Shown here: positions 4,550 through 12,722 of the stretch, piece by piece
Position numbering within the stretch: the first letter of the stretch is position 1
Layout: every line of letters starts with the position of its first letter
DNA from: a virus
Direction: 5' to 3' (one strand)
Virus record (IMG/VR): IMGVR_UViG_3300043777_000418
Coordinates: 1 to 36,421 of that record
Length of the DNA: 36,421 nt
Program-made: the position numbers and the translations under genes
The notes under the pieces: model-generated
What the model saw: the letters and a program-made list of their open reading frames with translations, nothing else
Told to the model about the DNA's origin: nothing
Databases searched by the model: none

Positions 4550-4756
4550 GTGGCCACCGTCCTCACCGCGCTCGCGTTCTGTCTCGCCTGTAGCCTGCTG
4601 CTGCGAGCTCCTATGGCCATCCTCTACATCATCGGCATCCCGCTCCTGGTCGTCGCCGCGTGGCTGACGGTGGCAGCAGTCGCGCCGGTCCTTGCCGTGG
4701 GCGTCCTGGTCCTCGGTCTGACGGCGAGCCTTACCCGTCACTTCGAGCGCCGCTAG
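4550..4756 (+). CDS. small two-span membrane protein (moron gene)
   Basis: A 68-aa very hydrophobic protein starting at GTG, with AGGAG about 12 nt upstream. Two or three membrane segments are visible (residues about 4-18, 22-40 and 43-60), and it ends in a basic tail (TRHFERR), which by the positive-inside rule puts the C-terminus in the cytoplasm. It follows the lipoprotein gene by 15 nt in the same direction, so the two likely form one small unit acting at the envelope. Its stop codon overlaps the end of the convergent minus-strand internal-virion gene. An ATG at 4545 opens only a 15-codon frame and was not used. Confidence 0.55.
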   Translation: MATVLTALAFCLACSLLLRAPMAILYIIGIPLLVVAAWLTVAAVAPVLAVGVLVLGLTASLTRHFERR

Positions 4757-6480
4757 CGCTGCTGCGGCTGCTGCACGATGCCCGGCGAGCTCGTCAACGC
4801 CGCGGCGATCGCCCGCGGGTCGAGCTGCCCCGGCTGATACTGCACCGCCCCACTCTGCCCAGGCCCGAGCGCGTACGCGCGCGCGCCCATCCGCGCGCCC
4901 TGGTAGGCGAGCGGGATCGCGGCCGCCTCGAGTCCGCCGTGCTCGAGCGGCAGCTGGTGTCCGAGTTCCATCGCACCGAGCACGCTGCCCCAAAATCCGA
5001 GGTGGCTCGAGCCAGGTGTCGAGGTCGGCTCGGCGAAGGCCTTCGGCGCCTGCCCCGCAGCCTCGGCCGCGACGCGCAGCGGTGAGCCGTCGGGCCCGAT
5101 GTAGTCGCCGCCCTTGAGCGCAGCGGCGAGTTTCTGCGCCTGCACGTTGCCGGTCGTGGGGTTGCGCGCGTCCTCGACGGTGCCGATCGCGGCGAACTGC
5201 TGCCGCGAATCGCGAAAGTTCGCCACCGTGTCGGGCTGACCGTTCGCGCTTAAGTGCTGGTCGATCGCGTTCTCGAGCACGCCCGACACGCCCTTGTAAG
5301 CGCGCCCAGCGCTCGCATCGCCGGCGCGGTAGGCCTGGCTCGCCTTGTCGCGCAGCTCTGCCATCGTGTCTATGGCATCACCGGCGTCAAAGGTTTGATT
5401 GCTCGCGATCTCGGCGGTGAGGTTGTCGAGCTGCGTGTTGCGCAGTGAGGGCGCGAGGCGCGCAGCGCCAGATTGCTGTTTCAGTGCCGCGGCGAGCTGC
5501 GCGGCCATGTCGGGGGGCGCTGTGATCTGGCCGGCGGTACGCATCGCGTCATAGCCTGGCGCAGCTCTTGCTTTCGCCTCCGCGACCTCGGCATCCGACA
5601 CCGGCGAGCCATCACCTGGCGGCAGCCCCATCGCCGCGCGCGCCTGCTCATTGGTGACGGGCTGATTTTCGACCGTGGCGTGCTGGTCGAGCGAGCTCTT
5701 GCCCGCGATGCTCGAGACGAGCCGATTGCCGGCCGTGGGATTCGTGGCCCCTGGCGGGAACACGTAGCCGGCCTCCTGGCCGGCCTGCACTGCGTCGTTA
5801 GCCTGGCTCGCAACCGGTGCGCCGCGGGCTCGAGGCATCACCGCGGCGCCGAGCGCCTGCGTCAGGACGGTCGCCGCGTTGTTCGCGGTATCCGACTGGA
5901 AAGGCTTCGCCTCGCTCACGTACTGAGCGGCGAGCGCCGGCGGCACGGCCGTCGCGGTCGAGCGGGCGATCGAGGGGATCGAACCCTCCCCGCCCGCGGC
6001 GATCGCCGGCAGTACGCTCGCGCCGGTGTTGAGGTAGCGCGAGGCCGGATCGTCCGCGCGTGTTGGCTGCGTGGTCGTGATGGGCGACTTGTCAGCCTGG
6101 CTCGTGAGCCACGCGCCTACGGGCGACGGGCCGCTGTTGACCTCGAGCGCGCTCGGGATCGGATTGCCCGTGAGCGCGTGATAACCGGCGCCGAGGCCCG
6201 CAGCTCCCAGGTTCACGGCATTGATCGCGGTATCGAAGGGCAGCGCAAGTGTGTACGCCGCGCCCTTGATGATGCCGCCCTCGCCCGCCTGCAGGCGATC
6301 GGCAGCGCTCGCCGGCGGGCCCTCCTTTTTCGCAGGCGCCCCCGGTGGTGCGAGGTCAGCGTACAGGCTCGGCGCCGCCGCGGTGCCCTTGACGGCGTCC
6401 GCGATCGAGCCCGGCGTGACTGCGGTCGATGCCGCAGGCTGCGCGCCGGCGACCAGGTCGTCGTACAAGCCGCCGCTCAT
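4753..6480 (-). CDS. internal virion / DNA-ejection protein
   Basis: A 575-aa protein, starting at the ATG in a 4-nt overlap with the upstream gene (an in-frame ATG at 6501 lies inside that gene). The N-terminus (MSGGLYDDLVAGAQPAAST) and a second SLYADLAPPG repeat are short motifs common at the start of large internal proteins. A Gly/Ala-rich stretch at about 70-110 (KGAAYTLALPFDTAINAVNLGAAGLGAGYHAL) may interact with membrane. The central part (about 200-460) is helical, with many NQxxDAGDAIDTMAELRDKA-like segments. It is the last of four consecutive Ala/Gln/Pro-rich virion genes, which fits the injected core proteins of short-tailed phages. Assignment is by composition and gene order. Confidence 0.65.
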   Translation of the reverse strand: MSGGLYDDLVAGAQPAASTAVTPGSIADAVKGTAAAPSLYADLAPPGAPAKKEGPPASAADRLQAGEGGIIKGAAYTLALPFDTAINAVNLGAAGLGAGYHALTGNPIPSALEVNSGPSPVGAWLTSQADKSPITTTQPTRADDPASRYLNTGASVLPAIAAGGEGSIPSIARSTATAVPPALAAQYVSEAKPFQSDTANNAATVLTQALGAAVMPRARGAPVASQANDAVQAGQEAGYVFPPGATNPTAGNRLVSSIAGKSSLDQHATVENQPVTNEQARAAMGLPPGDGSPVSDAEVAEAKARAAPGYDAMRTAGQITAPPDMAAQLAAALKQQSGAARLAPSLRNTQLDNLTAEIASNQTFDAGDAIDTMAELRDKASQAYRAGDASAGRAYKGVSGVLENAIDQHLSANGQPDTVANFRDSRQQFAAIGTVEDARNPTTGNVQAQKLAAALKGGDYIGPDGSPLRVAAEAAGQAPKAFAEPTSTPGSSHLGFWGSVLGAMELGHQLPLEHGGLEAAAIPLAYQGARMGARAYALGPGQSGAVQYQPGQLDPRAIAAALTSSPGIVQQPQQR

Positions 6481-8243
6481 TGCCAGTTCACCGGATCCCA
6501 ACCGAGTGAGTTCTTGAAGTCAGCGCGCGAGCCCGGGTTTTGCTGGAAACGCTGCAACGCGACTTGCCGCTGCGCCGGTGACATCTGCTGCATCGCTGCG
6601 AATTCGCTCAACGGCCGTTGCTGCGAGTACCAGGCCTCAAACTGCTGCGGATCCCCGCCGCTGCGCTGGAATTGGTTGTAATCCGTGGCGCGCTGTTTCG
6701 AGTAGAGCGCCTGCACGTTGCCCTGGGCGACGAGCGAGCCGATCGCGTCCGCGGTCATGTGCGAGCTCGGGCTCATTTCCTCGGTCTGCAGCTTGACCTC
6801 GTTTTGCGTCATGCGGTTGCCGTAAATCTGGCGCGCACCCTGCAGGGCCGAGTTGAGCAGCTCCTTGTTGAGCTCCATGGTCGGCGTGACGGTGCCGGAG
6901 GACGGCAGGACCTTCGAGAGCGAGGGGAACGCCTCAGTGAGGCGCGCGCGATTCGTCGTGAGCCACTCGGACATCGGGCCGACCTCAGCGTTGGGCAGCG
7001 CCGCGAGCGCGCGGCGATTCAAGTCGAGCTGCTGGTCGGCGAGGGCCGACTGCTGGCCGTACTGCGTCGACAATTCGGCGTTTTTCGCCGACGCGGCTTG
7101 CAGGTTGGCCGTCGTGTACGTGTTGGAAGTCTGCCCGGGGGTTACGGGTATTTGCAGCTTGGGCATCGTCGACCACAGTCCGCCCTGGGGCGCCGGCGCG
7201 GCTTGCGGAGGACCTGGCGGCCGCGGCGGCCCTTGCGGGGAGGCGCCAGGGGGCACCGCGGCGCCAGGTGCTGCTGCGCCAGGTGCGGGACCAGCTACAG
7301 GTGCGGCACCAGGCGGGGCAGACATGCCGGCAGGGGACGGTGCAGCAGGGGAAGGTGGCTGCTGCGGTGCCTGCAATGCCGGCGGCGTCGGAGGATACCC
7401 GATTTTTGTCACGCCGCCACCCTGCGGAATATCCCGCGGCGTGTTGGCTTGCGTCGCGGCGGTCGTCAGCCCGGTGCGCAGCGCCTGCAGCTGCGCGTCA
7501 CCCTGGATCGGCTGCGCGATGACCTGACCGTTGGGGCCGACCACGTAATACTCGCCCCTGCTCGGATCGGCGCCGACGACGGTGCGCCCAGTGATCGGGT
7601 CGATCATCGTGCCGCCCGGGCGGATTTCCTGGGCGGTGTTTTTCGCGAGCAGCGCACGGGCCGCGGTGCCCGGATCCAGACCCGCGGCGCGCGCCTGCTG
7701 CGCCCACTCGGGGCCCTGCAGGTACGCGGCATATTTCGCGGGATCGCTCATTGCGAGCTGGCGCGCGACGTCGGCCGGCAGGCCGTACGGGTTGCGCGGA
7801 TTCACAGGCGCATTGGTCGGTTGCGTCTGCTGCACGGTGGTCTGCAGAGACTGCCCAGGAGCTCGCGCGATCGCCGGCTGCACGCTCTGCTCGTTGGGAT
7901 CGCTCGGCGGCGCCGCGGGCTGTAGCGGCGTCCCCGGGCTCGTTTGCTGGCCACCGGGCGCGTACGCCGCGTTGAGCTTTTGCTGCAGACTGACCTGCGA
8001 CTGCAGCGCCTGATTGGCGGCGCTCTTGCCCATCAAGGCCTCGGCGATCTTCGCGATCGGCTGCGCGATGCCCGTGCGCGGCTGCACGTACAGGCCCTTT
8101 ACCGGCGCGGTCTCGGGCTGTTGGATCGGGCTCATCGAGCCTTGCATCAACGCATTGGCCAGCATCTGCTGGCGCTGCGTGGTGATGAAGTCCGAGTAAT
8201 CCGCGGCCGGGACGCCGGCCGGGACCTGAGTCATGTCGGGCAT
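6477..8243 (-). CDS. internal virion protein with Pro/Gly/Ala-rich linker
   Basis: A 588-aa protein. The N-terminal third (to about 100) is Gln-rich and helical (FITTQRQQMLANALMQGSM, ANQALQSQVSLQQKL). Residues about 145-270 hold a small domain with DPITGRTVVGADPSRGEYYVV. A low-complexity linker of Pro/Gly/Ala (about 285-365) separates it from a helical C-terminal half rich in Gln (QQSALADQQLDLNRRALAAL, NRMTQNEVKLQTEEM). It is placed between other ejection-protein candidates and probably travels in the capsid core. No enzymatic motif such as a transglycosylase was seen. The 4-nt overlap with the next gene implies coupled expression. Confidence 0.62.
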   Translation of the reverse strand: MPDMTQVPAGVPAADYSDFITTQRQQMLANALMQGSMSPIQQPETAPVKGLYVQPRTGIAQPIAKIAEALMGKSAANQALQSQVSLQQKLNAAYAPGGQQTSPGTPLQPAAPPSDPNEQSVQPAIARAPGQSLQTTVQQTQPTNAPVNPRNPYGLPADVARQLAMSDPAKYAAYLQGPEWAQQARAAGLDPGTAARALLAKNTAQEIRPGGTMIDPITGRTVVGADPSRGEYYVVGPNGQVIAQPIQGDAQLQALRTGLTTAATQANTPRDIPQGGGVTKIGYPPTPPALQAPQQPPSPAAPSPAGMSAPPGAAPVAGPAPGAAAPGAAVPPGASPQGPPRPPGPPQAAPAPQGGLWSTMPKLQIPVTPGQTSNTYTTANLQAASAKNAELSTQYGQQSALADQQLDLNRRALAALPNAEVGPMSEWLTTNRARLTEAFPSLSKVLPSSGTVTPTMELNKELLNSALQGARQIYGNRMTQNEVKLQTEEMSPSSHMTADAIGSLVAQGNVQALYSKQRATDYNQFQRSGGDPQQFEAWYSQQRPLSEFAAMQQMSPAQRQVALQRFQQNPGSRADFKNSLGWDPVNWQ

Positions 8244-8252
8244 GTCGACCTC

Positions 8253-8675
8253 TTACGAGCCGGGCGTGAGCCCCGGTGTCGTCATCGCCAGGGGCGAGAC
8301 GGCCGCCTGCGGATTCGGTACCGGCATCCCGGGCGCCACGGCCGCACCCGGCGGCATCATCGGCGCGCCACTACCAGGCGGGGGCCCCATCGGCGCCGCG
8401 CCAGGCGCGCCCATGCCAGGGGCCGGCGGCCCGGTTTGCGGAACGGGCTGTTGTGCGACCGGCAGCGGCTGCTGCGCCTGACCGGGCCGACCGGCGAGGA
8501 GCGCCGCTTGCTTGCGCTTCGCCATCAAGGCCGCGGCGAGCTGAGCTGCGCCACCGGCGGCGCCGCCGCCTGGTGCGCTACCCGCGTAAGGCGTCATTGC
8601 CATGCGCTGCAGCCCTGCGAGCTGTTGCTGCTGCGGGGTTTGCGGCTGCTGTTGCTGCTGCTGGTTGATGCCCAT
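8253..8675 (-). CDS. low-complexity Gln/Pro/Gly-rich virion protein
   Basis: A 140-aa protein beginning MGINQQQQQQPQTPQQQQL and continuing as almost pure Pro/Gly/Ala/Met/Gln low complexity. A short helical island lies at about residues 38-60 (AAQLAAALMAKRKQAALLAG). The ATG at 8675 is chosen because AGGTGG lies 8 nt upstream; a TTG at 8693 is a weaker alternative. It overlaps the end of the preceding diiron-protein gene by 98 nt in another frame, unusual for this tightly packed but otherwise 4-nt-overlap operon. Its composition matches the neighbouring internal virion proteins. No specific function can be assigned. Confidence 0.55.
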   Translation of the reverse strand: MGINQQQQQQPQTPQQQQLAGLQRMAMTPYAGSAPGGGAAGGAAQLAAALMAKRKQAALLAGRPGQAQQPLPVAQQPVPQTGPPAPGMGAPGAAPMGPPPGSGAPMMPPGAAVAPGMPVPNPQAAVSPLAMTTPGLTPGS

Positions 8676-9192
8676 CTGTGCCACCTGTTGCAAAGTACGC
8701 GGCGGAGCGCCGCAGATAGTCGAAGGTCACGCCCCTGGTCTGCTCGACCAGGCGGCGCTCGTCATCGCTGAGCCGCGCGATCACGTCGCGCAGCTCCTCG
8801 AGGTGCCCGGGATCCTCCTGGGCATGGTGTCGGATCGTGCGCAGCAGCTCGCTCGGGTACTGACGCGACCAGCGCTCGAGGTTCGCCTTAAGTGGCGTGC
8901 CCTCGAGGACGCTCATGTAGCCGAGCAGCGCGCACGGGTGCGCGTGAAAAATCAGGTAATAGATCGAGCCGACCATTTCCATGACCTCGCGCGGGATCTT
9001 GGTGCGCGAGGCCTCGATGCCAACGGTGCGCAGATCCTCGGCGAGCCAGGCCGCGTGCCCGCGCTCCTCCTCGAGATGGCGCCGGAAGTAGTCGGCGAGG
9101 TCGCCTGAGCTCCTCGCGATCGCGCACTCGAGCAGCTGCTCGCTCGCGACCGTCACGTGCCACAGCCAAACGAGATTGCGCAGGAAGTCCAT
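8578..9192 (-). CDS. haem-oxygenase-like diiron (HDO) family protein
   Basis: A 204-aa all-helical protein with the marks of the haem-oxygenase-like fold. There are Glu residues in helix 1 (about 18 and 22), HLEEERGHAAW (39-49, with E42/E43 and H46), LGYMSVLEG (90-98, with E97) and HHAQEDPGHLEEL (122-134). In the last motif H123-x3-D127-x2-H130 has the spacing of the metal-binding helix of CADD/SznF-type diiron enzymes. These His and carboxylate residues could bind two irons for an O2-dependent oxidation or N-oxygenation; the substrate is unknown. Residues after about 168 are low complexity and overlap the next gene. It sits among virion core genes, so it may be packaged or may be a metabolic passenger. 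Fold call fairly secure, function open. Confidence 0.65.
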   Translation of the reverse strand: MDFLRNLVWLWHVTVASEQLLECAIARSSGDLADYFRRHLEEERGHAAWLAEDLRTVGIEASRTKIPREVMEMVGSIYYLIFHAHPCALLGYMSVLEGTPLKANLERWSRQYPSELLRTIRHHAQEDPGHLEELRDVIARLSDDERRLVEQTRGVTFDYLRRSAAYFATGGTDGHQPAAATAAANPAAATARRAAAHGNDALRG

Positions 9193-10184
9193 TAGTAATA
9201 CATGATCGCCGCGGCCGCGAGACTGGCGCCGGCGCCGATGTCAGCATTGCTCGAGGCCGTGTTGGCGTTGTAGCCGGCGAGCTGGCCCTGATACTGGTTT
9301 TGAAATGCGCTCATGATGTCGGGCGCACTGGTGCCCGCGCCGCCAGATCCGGTGAGCCCCATCGAGGGCAGGCTCGGATTGACGCCACTTTCGATCGCCC
9401 CGTACTCCTGCAGCGGCAGCTCCTGCAGCTGGATTTCCGAGCCGAGCCCTTGCTCCTCCTGGCCGAACTGCTGCCCGGCGGCCGCGTTCGCCGCCTGCTG
9501 CTCAGTCGTCGCCTCGCCGAATAGCTGCTGATTCGTGTTGGCGCTTTCACCGTACAGCGCCTGCTGCTCGGTGAGCCCTTGATTGACGGCCGTGTTTTCG
9601 ACGCCCTCCTGCTCCTGCTGCTGCTGCAGGCTGAGGTCCTCCATTGCGTTGTTATAGGCCTCGGACCCCGGCTGCGCGCCCTCGTTGCGCAGCGTCGCGT
9701 CCTCCTGCTGCTGCTGCTGCTGGATCTGCGGCTGCAGATACATTTCACCGGTGTTGTATGCGGCCTGCTGCGCTTCCCCGGTGAACCCTCCGAGATCGTC
9801 CGCGCCGGCGATCTGTGGGACGCCCGAGGTGTTGATCTGCGCCTGCACTGGAGTCGCCGCGGCGTTTTGCGGCACGCCAGACTCGAGCTGCCGCTGCGCT
9901 TCGCTTGCGAGCGCTTCCCCGGTGGCGCCGCTCGTGACCTGCCCGGCCTGCTGCTCGTTGAGGATCTGCTGCTGCGGCGCCGTGAGGCTTTCGGTTGTCG
10001 TGTAAACCGGCGCGCCGGTCTGCGGATTGACGCCGGTCTGCACCTGGCTCGTCGTGCCGGTCGGGGTGATCGTCGAGCCAGATCCTAGAGCCTTGTTGTA
10101 GGCCGCGGCCTCGGTGCCGTACTCGTACTGCGCGGCAGCCGACTGATACGGATCAGGCGCTGCGGGTGCGGAGCTCTTTCCCAT
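9192..10184 (-). CDS. Gln-rich internal virion / DNA-transfer protein
   Basis: A 330-aa protein starting MGKSSAPAAPDPYQSAAAQ, a start common to a class of short-tailed phage virion proteins encoded just after the tail hub. The middle is strongly Gln/Glu-rich (QIQQQQQQEDATLRNEG, LSLQQQQEQEGVENTA, LTEQQALYGESANTNQQL) and predicted helical. The C-terminus (about 300-330) is Ala/Gly-rich and hydrophobic (GAGASLAAAAIMYY), possibly membrane-active. These features suit a protein released from the capsid into the host envelope during DNA entry. It overlaps the acetyltransferase-like gene by 32 nt. The role is inferred from family resemblance and position. Confidence 0.65.
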   Translation of the reverse strand: MGKSSAPAAPDPYQSAAAQYEYGTEAAAYNKALGSGSTITPTGTTSQVQTGVNPQTGAPVYTTTESLTAPQQQILNEQQAGQVTSGATGEALASEAQRQLESGVPQNAAATPVQAQINTSGVPQIAGADDLGGFTGEAQQAAYNTGEMYLQPQIQQQQQQEDATLRNEGAQPGSEAYNNAMEDLSLQQQQEQEGVENTAVNQGLTEQQALYGESANTNQQLFGEATTEQQAANAAAGQQFGQEEQGLGSEIQLQELPLQEYGAIESGVNPSLPSMGLTGSGGAGTSAPDIMSAFQNQYQGQLAGYNANTASSNADIGAGASLAAAAIMYY

Positions 10185-10620
10185 TTTTCCCCACTCCTAA
10201 CCATCGGCACTCGCTTTTGAGCATGCCGAACAGGACCAAGTCCTCGCCGTTGGGCAGTGCCTTGCGGCAAAGGCCCTCCTCGAGAAACCCGAAATGTCTG
10301 CACAGCCGCCTCGAGGCCGCGTTGCTCGCAGCCACCTTGCAGGTGATGCGCGCGACCTTGAGCTGCAGAAACGGATACCGAAAAATCGCGCCCAGGAATT
10401 CGGGCGTCATCGCATGCCGGTGCGCGACCGCGATGTGTGCGTCGACGTTGATGCGCGTGAAGTTGTCATAGACCACGGCCGCGAGGATCGCCGGCATGGT
10501 GGCCTGCGAGTCCTTGACGAGCGCGACCGTGGTGAAAGGCGTCGAGCCGACGACAAAGTGCGGTATGCGCTCGGCGAGCCAGTGCGCGATGCGCTCGGCC
10601 GGCGCTCCAACGACTCTCAC
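10153..10620 (-). CDS. GNAT-like N-acetyltransferase
   Basis: A 155-aa protein with late GNAT features: a beta strand plus helix, KVAASNAASRRLCRHFGFLEEGLCRKAL (about residues 95-122), corresponding to the region where GNAT enzymes have N..S..L..K.GF..EG, followed by NGEDLVLFGMLKSECRWL. This compact form is found next to tail genes in many short-tailed phages, where its target is unknown (a virion protein or host factor is possible). The canonical pyrophosphate-binding R/Q-x-x-G-x-G/A loop is not obvious: VAHRHAMTPEFLGAIF stands in its place. Activity is therefore uncertain. It overlaps the tail-hub gene by 4 nt and the downstream gene by 32 nt. Confidence 0.62.
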   Translation of the reverse strand: MRVVGAPAERIAHWLAERIPHFVVGSTPFTTVALVKDSQATMPAILAAVVYDNFTRINVDAHIAVAHRHAMTPEFLGAIFRYPFLQLKVARITCKVAASNAASRRLCRHFGFLEEGLCRKALPNGEDLVLFGMLKSECRWLGVGKNGKELRTRSA

Positions 10621-12722
10621 ATTAGGCCGCCCGGCTCAAACTGGTAATCGGTGCTCTGCCACTGGATCGAGACATCCTTGGCGTTGACCTGCAGCGACAA
10701 CGAGCCGGCGTACCCGAGGCCCGAAATCCCGATCCACTCTTTCGAGATAATCGTCGCATCGCCCCACAAGGTCGTGTTCCACGGTGAGGTATTCCACGGC
10801 GCCGAGCTGCCCACCGTCGCCGGCACGGTGCCGCTCGGCACGGCCATCGCAAAGTCGACATTCATGGTCAGCCCGACCGCGAGGCTGCCGTTGACCGTGA
10901 AGATCGGTCGCGCCATCGTCCAGCGCTTGAGCCGCCCGGGCATGCCGAAATACGAAAACGCCGGGGTACACAGCCCCTGGATCGAGGCGCCGGCGTCATC
11001 CTCGCCGGTGTCGCACTGCTGCACGCTCCCGGTCGTTCCGTAGTACAGGGCATCGCCCAGGACCTCGAAACAGTAGGCATTCCAGGGCGAGGCGTACTTG
11101 CCGAAGGTGCACCAGCTCGCGTTGAGGGTGCTCATCACGTATTGGTAGCTCGTCGAGGCCTGGGTCGAGGGCACGTTGATGAGCAGCTTGTTTCCGGCGG
11201 GGTACAGCTGCGCCTGCCAGCCGAAATTGTTGCCGTAATTCAAAATGTCGGCGTTGATCGCGTTGCGGATCTTATCCGATACGGAGCCGCGGCTCTGCGA
11301 GCGATCGGTCAGCAGCGCCTGGCTCATCAGGATGACGCCGTCGACGCAGATCACCGCCGCATCGGATCCCATTTTCTGCCAGCAGCGCCGGCCGCGGCCG
11401 ATCGGGCGCCCGAGCCTAAAGTGCGCCGACAAAAACCACGTCGTCGTCGAGGCGGGGTTGTAACCCTGGAAAACGACGACCTCGCCGGTGCTGGAGATAA
11501 AGGCGATGTAGTCCTGCAGGCCTTCGGAATTGTCGATCGACACGGTGAGGATTGACACGAGAGAGCCGCCGAGCGAGAAGTACGCCCCGAGCGGCAGCTG
11601 ATTGAGCGCACCCGAGATCGCATCGACCGCGAGCCACCACACGTTGAAGCTGTTCGCCTGAATGAAAAACAGCGACCCGTGATACGAGCCGACCGCGCTT
11701 AGCGTGTTGGGACTGACGCCGCCGAGCGCATAGGGCGCGGTGACGCTCGTCACCTTGGCGGTGCCGGCGCCGCCCGTCACCGCGAAGCTGAGCGTATCCC
11801 CGACGAGATACCCGCCGGCGCCCGAGCTTGAGATCGTCACGCCCGTGACCACACCGCCGGCGACGGTGATCGTGCCCACCGCGCCCGCGCCAGTGCCCCC
11901 GGTCAACGCGGTGTTGGGATAGCTGCCGTTGGTGAGCGCGGCCGTGACGCTCGAGACAGTGCAGCCCGTGCCGGCGCCGCCGGTGACGACAAATGAGAGC
12001 ACGTTGCCGACGCCATAGCCGACGCCAGGCGTCGTGATGACGACCGCCGTCACGTTGCCGCCCGATACGGTGATTGTCGCGATCGCGCCGGTCCCGGTGC
12101 CTCCGGTCAGCGCGGTGTTGGGATACGTGCCGTTGGTGCCGGTGCCGGTGAGCGTCCCGACACCGGTGATCGCACCATCCTGCGAGGTGAAGGTCCCGAC
12201 GCCTAAGATCGCGCCGGCGAGCTCCGTCACCGACCACCAGGTCGTGCCGTCAAAGAGCAGCGGATTGTCGACACCGTTCACCAGGTACAAGGCCTCGACG
12301 GCGCCGGTCGAGCTCATCACCCAGTCATATTGCGTGGAGGTGATCGGTTGGATCGTGCCGCCCGCTCCTCCGACGACGGGCGCGCCAACAGGTCCGCCGG
12401 CGAGACCGTCGACGCGAAAGATCGAGCGCACGCCCGCGTTATTGACCGCGCCAAACAACATGTTGGCCAGCAGGCCCGGGTACGCGGCGAGCGTCTCGCA
12501 ATTCCCTGCGAAGGTCGCCGCCGTGAGCCGCCCATTGCGCAGCTGCACGTTGCTCGGGGTCGGCAGGAAATTGTCGCAAATGACCGCGTCCGTCTCGGGC
12601 ATGTTCGCGATCGCATCGCGAGCGTTGAGCCCACCGGTCGGCGCCGGAATCGACTTGCCAGCGACCGAGACCGCCTGCGGCTGCGGGATCTGCCGCTGCC
12701 CGATGGTGTAAGGCTGGAACAT
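10617..12722 (-). CDS. large tail hub/tube virion protein with two LTGG modules
   Basis: A 701-aa protein. The N-terminus (GKSIPAPTGGLNARDAIANMP, DNFLPTPSNVQLRNGR) is the conserved start of a large tail/virion protein of short-tailed phages, comparable in gene position to T7 tail tubular protein B. Two consecutive modules of about 63 residues (198-260 and 266-328) share YPNTALTGGTGxGA, a TITVxGGxVT strand pair, and GxxLSFxVTGGAG. Removing them leaves a standard-length protein, so they look inserted. The C-terminal half is beta-rich with aromatic motifs (NVWWLAVDAISGALNQLPLG, NAYCFEVLGDALYYG, FSYFGMPGRLKRW). It probably forms the nozzle or hub below the adaptor, to which fibres attach. Confidence 0.75.
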   Translation of the reverse strand: MFQPYTIGQRQIPQPQAVSVAGKSIPAPTGGLNARDAIANMPETDAVICDNFLPTPSNVQLRNGRLTAATFAGNCETLAAYPGLLANMLFGAVNNAGVRSIFRVDGLAGGPVGAPVVGGAGGTIQPITSTQYDWVMSSTGAVEALYLVNGVDNPLLFDGTTWWSVTELAGAILGVGTFTSQDGAITGVGTLTGTGTNGTYPNTALTGGTGTGAIATITVSGGNVTAVVITTPGVGYGVGNVLSFVVTGGAGTGCTVSSVTAALTNGSYPNTALTGGTGAGAVGTITVAGGVVTGVTISSSGAGGYLVGDTLSFAVTGGAGTAKVTSVTAPYALGGVSPNTLSAVGSYHGSLFFIQANSFNVWWLAVDAISGALNQLPLGAYFSLGGSLVSILTVSIDNSEGLQDYIAFISSTGEVVVFQGYNPASTTTWFLSAHFRLGRPIGRGRRCWQKMGSDAAVICVDGVILMSQALLTDRSQSRGSVSDKIRNAINADILNYGNNFGWQAQLYPAGNKLLINVPSTQASTSYQYVMSTLNASWCTFGKYASPWNAYCFEVLGDALYYGTTGSVQQCDTGEDDAGASIQGLCTPAFSYFGMPGRLKRWTMARPIFTVNGSLAVGLTMNVDFAMAVPSGTVPATVGSSAPWNTSPWNTTLWGDATIISKEWIGISGLGYAGSLSLQVNAKDVSIQWQSTDYQFEPGGLM
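11739..12131 (-). repeat. two LTGG modules in the tail hub gene
   Basis: Codons 198-260 and 266-328 encode two tandem modules with YPNTALTGGTG, a TITVxGG strand pair and LSFxVTGGAG. The DNA of the two copies is alike over tens of bases (for example a GCGGTGTTGGGATA segment occurs in both), suggesting recent duplication. Confidence 0.85.

Follow-up and report, generated by a model that had tools for sequence, protein, structure and literature searches.

Haem-oxygenase-like dimetal oxidases/oxygenases (HDOs) have been described from bacteria, where they serve in the biosynthesis of natural products and cofactors. The superfamily, which includes UndA, CtCADD, SznF, BesC, HrmI and AetD, is characterised by the haem oxygenase (HO) fold, a metal helix with the spacing H-x3-D-x2-H and an E-H-X-H-D-H motif, reported for UndA, CADD, SznF and BesC (PMC11363339), and the majority ligand set consists of three His and three carboxylates (3H/3C; PMC13108848). 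Characterised HDOs act on amino-acid, acyl and peptide substrate classes, and ribosomal peptide modification is among their listed roles (PMC13108848). Among phages, the block that we compare here has detectable homology to the operon of Mx8-like podoviruses (Mx8 p52-p57, ppBjS10J-1 and ctMlz233), which has the same gp12-GNAT-gp14 order and carries no HDO gene in the slot that follows. We analysed a 36,421-nt stretch of viral DNA, hereafter the window (IMG/VR record IMGVR_UViG_3300043777_000418, positions 1 to 36,421), in which a predicted HDO occupies this slot. The protein has the HO fold by prediction, the ligand motif and the metal helix in common with the superfamily, but it is phage-encoded, coupled to a virion gene and without an adjoining biosynthetic partner gene.

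The plus strand across the gene carries stop codons, and the 204-aa ORF is read from 9192 down to 8578. Pfam family PF14518 (Haem_oxygenas_2) matched residues 11-148 with an E-value of 2e-10 (41.2 bits, cut-off 28.9), and 36 of 49 HDO family members matched it at E<=0.01. PHROGs v4 assigned no family to the HDO, one family member matching phrog_8847 at 0.0017, and a PDB search with the single sequence returned weak matches only. A troponin I match of a four-sequence HDO profile was put down to chance. Relatives were gathered by scanning IMG/VR, giving an alignment of 60 sequences that comprises the window, 58 IMG/VR loci (designated by L numbers) and one bacterial protein.

Table 1. Features of the HDO gene and its neighbours in the window.
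Feature	Position	Strand	Details
Large downstream protein, 582 aa, presumed internal virion	4753..6501	-	homologues in 11 loci; no significant family match
Large downstream protein, 588 aa, presumed internal virion	6477..8243	-	homologues in 21 loci; no family match
Small Q-rich gene, 98 nt overlapped by HDO tail	8253..8675	-	
HDO-like gene	8578..9192	-	204 aa, ATG start, PF14518, AlphaFold2 model, fold matches
C-terminal tail, residues 169-204, low confidence, not in relatives; overprints next gene start	8581..8688	-	pLDDT 41-56
Conserved HDO domain, residues 1-168	8689..9192	-	AlphaFold2 pLDDT ~98
H123-x3-D127-x2-H130, predicted metal helix	8803..8826	-	each invariant 58/58
E97 codon, predicted metal ligand	8902..8904	-	invariant 59/59
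H46 codon, predicted metal ligand	9055..9057	-	invariant 60/60
E43 codon, predicted metal ligand	9064..9066	-	invariant 60/60
TAATG stop/start overlap, gp14-like gene to HDO gene	9190..9194	-	TGATG/TAATG in 36/56 loci
gp14-like virion structural protein (phrog_6121), adjacent coupled partner	9192..10184	-	E=2.5e-28
GNAT-like protein	10153..10620	-	PF13302 4.7e-5, just below cut-off; homologues in 55 loci
Tail-tube-B/stabilisation-like protein (phrog_5107)	10617..12722	-	E=4.3e-93

An AlphaFold2 model built from 49 aligned HDO sequences had a mean pLDDT of 89.6 and a pTM of 0.82, with most of residues 1-170 at about 98, and placed helices at residues 3-27, 30-43, 46-55, 68-83, 88-97, 102-111, 114-139 and 143-168. 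The best structural matches to this predicted structure in both Foldseek and VIA-align 2 were HO-fold proteins, as expected if the initial annotation was right to propose an HDO helix bundle. The closest was 3dde (Sden_3740 of Shewanella denitrificans; Z 19.3, 2.5 A over 180), followed by CtCADD (Z 17.2, 2.1 A over 169 residues), TenA (16.6), HrmI (16.3), UndA (15.5) and haem oxygenases (about 14.7), all of which exceed the Z of up to about 13 that unrelated helical bundles may score. The first of these, a non-phage protein deposited as a domain of unknown function, was the best solved match by profile as well as by fold (profile E=8.6e-5), and its metal positions coincide with those of the HDO in the HMM alignment. 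Sequence identity between phage and solved HDOs is only 12-17%, and a BFVD fold search with the model gave no match at E<=0.001. In the high-confidence part of the model the six predicted ligands fall within the expected helices or at their edges; from this placement and the fold match we infer that they would converge on one dimetal site.

All seven residues singled out in the initial annotation (E42, E43, H46, E97, H123, D127 and H130) are present in the translation, the last three in the proposed H-x3-D-x2-H arrangement. Its pairing of E42 with E43 stood for E43 only, E42 being kept in 46 of 60 sequences and replaced by D or N in 14/60; H39 is likewise less conserved (54/60). The remaining six positions, which fit the E-H-X-H-D-H motif and the 3H/3C set, do not vary across the approximately 60 sequences wherever the alignment covers them (Table 1), and D53 is equally invariant (60/60). 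Positions 1-168 hold 34 H, E or D residues, seven of them invariant, and the predicted ligands are six of these seven; by a hypergeometric estimate, the chance that six random H/E/D positions would all be invariant is about 5e-6. Mean column identity, by comparison, is 38%, and outside the ligands the phage sequences diverge to approximately 30-50% identity. Fifteen bacterial relatives that we examined also keep the six ligands and D53. Neither the predicted fold nor the behaviour of the ligand positions contradicts the initial annotation. Conserved non-ligand residues include G91 and Y92, and pairwise dN/dS was 0.06-0.13 in most close pairs and up to 0.45 in others. Because the six predicted ligands are unchanged across about 60 phages, the protein is very probably a working enzyme.

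Three neighbouring protein classes were considered and set aside. No proximal His of a canonical haem oxygenase is conserved at positions 7-18 (H at position 12 in 13/60 and at 11 in 28/60), ferritin-like families scored below their cut-offs (PF00210, 17.0 bits against 24.5; PF02915, 14.2 bits against 22.8), and an FlcD-type reading is ruled out by the invariance of H123, D127 and H130. Comparison with the SznF-type 3H/4C set revealed no extra invariant Glu, D53 being the only further invariant carboxylate. In the self-sacrificing pABA synthase CADD/PabS the sacrificial residues are Tyr27 and Lys152 of CtCADD; their presumed counterparts (positions 2 and 107, placed by alignment offsets) vary freely.

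The gene lies in a block of the order gp11-gp12-GNAT-gp14-HDO-internal proteins, where the gp names are borrowed from T7 on the grounds of gene order and PHROG class and denote analogy, not tested homology. A gp14-like (phrog_6121) gene is recognisable in 56 loci, the window among them, and in 55 of these the HDO start lies 0-9 nt past the gp14-like stop. An enzyme of this kind had been considered unexpected in a virion operon, and this holds; the arrangement proves to be conserved and to recur in many tailed phages. Its description as lying between four structural genes is borne out upstream by the phrog_6121 virion protein, with the GNAT-like gene before it, but not downstream, where neither the small gene nor the two large proteins gave a significant match in Pfam or PHROGs; the label "internal virion" for these proteins therefore rests on position. 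Distances among the HDOs are correlated with those among the gp14 proteins (Mantel 0.476, p 0.001), which fits a largely common inheritance. The order deviates in L047 (gp12-HDO-GNAT), and the HDO slot is kept in L031 and L050 although the protein upstream of it cannot be recognised as gp14-like. At L063 (3269-4899) a gp14-like and HDO pair was found, gp12 and GNAT were not detected, and genes resembling an AlpA-type regulator and replication genes lie nearby; this locus is possibly a prophage remnant or satellite. The GNAT-like gene is present in nearly all relatives, including those that lack the HDO, and its product is homologous to Mx8 p53, annotated as an acyl-CoA N-acyltransferase and "potential holin".

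At its other end the HDO gene runs into the next gene. The overlap is 98 nt when ATG 8675 is taken as the start of the latter, which agrees with the overlap first reported, or 116 nt when TTG 8693 is. The conserved domain stops at about 8689, 14 nt short of this ATG, and the window protein has 48 residues after T156 compared with a family median of 14. Since the tail is specific to the window and the overlap in L020 is 4 nt, the long overlap is probably a stop-loss or junction feature of the window phage and not of the family.

The HDO is an accessory and not a core gene, the closest relatives being without it. The gp14 proteins of L003 and L004 share 83% identity with that of the window, yet both loci lack an HDO; as the more distant L020 has one, the simpler account is that the L003/L004 lineage lost it. 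Among 62 classified loci of a sample drawn by gp12, the slot behind the gp14-like gene held an HDO in 5, a PAPS_reduct-like gene in 13 and something else or nothing in 44, and never both enzymes, although these counts are not population frequencies since the seed alignment included HDO and PAPS carriers. PF01507 was confirmed for three of the PAPS_reduct-like slot proteins. Examples of PAPS_reduct (PF01507) genes with the SGGKDS motif in this slot are L085 (4965-5702), L087 (5004-5702), L126 (5561-6244) and L007 (from approximately 6828). A DUF7694 (PF24746) protein occupies the slot in L133 (5063-5374) and, by eye, a similar one in L165.

In a midpoint-rooted FastTree phylogeny the phage HDOs form one clade beside HDOs of Sinorhizobium fredii and Acidobacteria. 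These PF14518 proteins (L028, L083 and L184-L190), the nearest bacterial group in the tree, share with the phage HDOs the ligands, W49, D53 and R118, but are chromosomal or plasmid-borne rather than phage-encoded. In the Acidobacterial loci L028, L184 and L186-L190 the HDO is followed, as a conserved pair, by an apparent Ser/Thr protein kinase with TPR repeats, the kinase being confirmed by Pfam in L028 and assigned by sequence appearance in the others. On an S. fredii plasmid (L083, 5027-8582) the HDO relative adjoins YcaO and TfuA, next to which lies a class III cyclase-like gene. A more distant bacterial group is flanked by AMP-binding and SDR genes, and a plasmid operon with the order "thermostable hemolysin", AMP-binding, HDO, SDR and hypothetical gene was seen in Variovorax, Vibrio, Citrobacter and Pseudoalteromonas (L180-L183). 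Together the bacterial gene contexts point to no single shared substrate.

Tblastn searches of INPHARED with the HDOs of the window, L022, L024 and L041 gave no match or only matches at E 0.3-0.4; the gp14-like protein of the window matched no named phage in INPHARED, nor did L041 by megablast. A phage HDO was not found in open-access full-text literature, and the word "phage" is absent from the main text of a 2026 HDO review. The chemistry class of the HDO is known; as far as INPHARED, PHROGs v4, BFVD and open-access full text reach, the novelty lies in a clade of phage HDOs and in their coupling to a virion gene.

The reading that best accounts for these observations, to which we give a probability of roughly 60%, is that the phage protein is an accessory HDO, competent in catalysis and translated together with the ejection protein. 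Its translation would directly follow that of the gp14-like ejection-apparatus protein through stop/start coupling, so that it is presumably made late. E43, H46, E97, H123, D127 and H130 would hold two Fe (or Fe/Mn), and this site would form a peroxo state on reaction with O2 and, in the infected cell, oxidise a substrate of the amino-acid, acyl or peptide type. What speaks against a metabolic role is the near-absolute link to gp14, since the enzyme could instead act on the virion.

We regard it as possible, though clearly second to the metabolic role, that the HDO modifies a virion protein, be it the gp14-like one or a different one, or that it is packaged along with the internal core and injected. 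The adjacency in 55 of 56 loci, the slot kept in L031 and L050, the L063 locus where the gp14-HDO pair alone was detected, and the S. fredii relative beside the ribosomal-peptide modifiers YcaO and TfuA all speak for such a link. However, the HDO is missing from most phages that carry this gp14-like protein, the PAPS-reductase-like gene found elsewhere in the same slot fits a cargo site, L047 departs from the order, and the YcaO/TfuA context is confined to one bacterial lineage while the Acidobacterial relatives adjoin a protein kinase. That an HDO made in step with the gp14-like protein oxidises a virion protein or enters the host with the DNA is a tentative proposal, and a slightly more doubtful one.

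Metal binding without substrate oxidation, serving iron sequestration or protection from reactive oxygen late in infection, appears improbable. It has an analogue in the HDO-domain protein DtpC of A. baumannii, which protects against oxidative stress and requires its metal residues, sequestration being one mechanism considered by its authors (PMC13232832), but the conserved non-ligand residues G91 and Y92 of the phage proteins look like parts of an active site. Less probable still is the suggestion that the fold was recruited as a non-catalytic structural protein of the virion: the position in a virion operon would suit it, but strict conservation of six ligands while the rest diverges disfavours a purely structural role, as does the absence of the gene from close relatives. 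A spurious or decaying ORF, which the 98-nt overlap and the disordered tail of the window copy might suggest, is already refuted at the level of sequence conservation by the low dN/dS of relatives, the conserved start coupling and an intact gene in about 60 phages.

The slot behind the gp14-like gene would mark a cargo site of a podovirus operon with interchanging enzymes. Next to the bacterial HDOs, the phage group would be a sizeable uncatalogued clade that combines strictly conserved predicted metal sites with near-absolute linkage to a virion gene. Phage HDOs offer a clear test of whether O2-activating enzymes are injected by phages or used in virion formation; if the HDO does act on the virion or is injected, it would represent a protein-modifying or injected dimetal oxygenase of phages.
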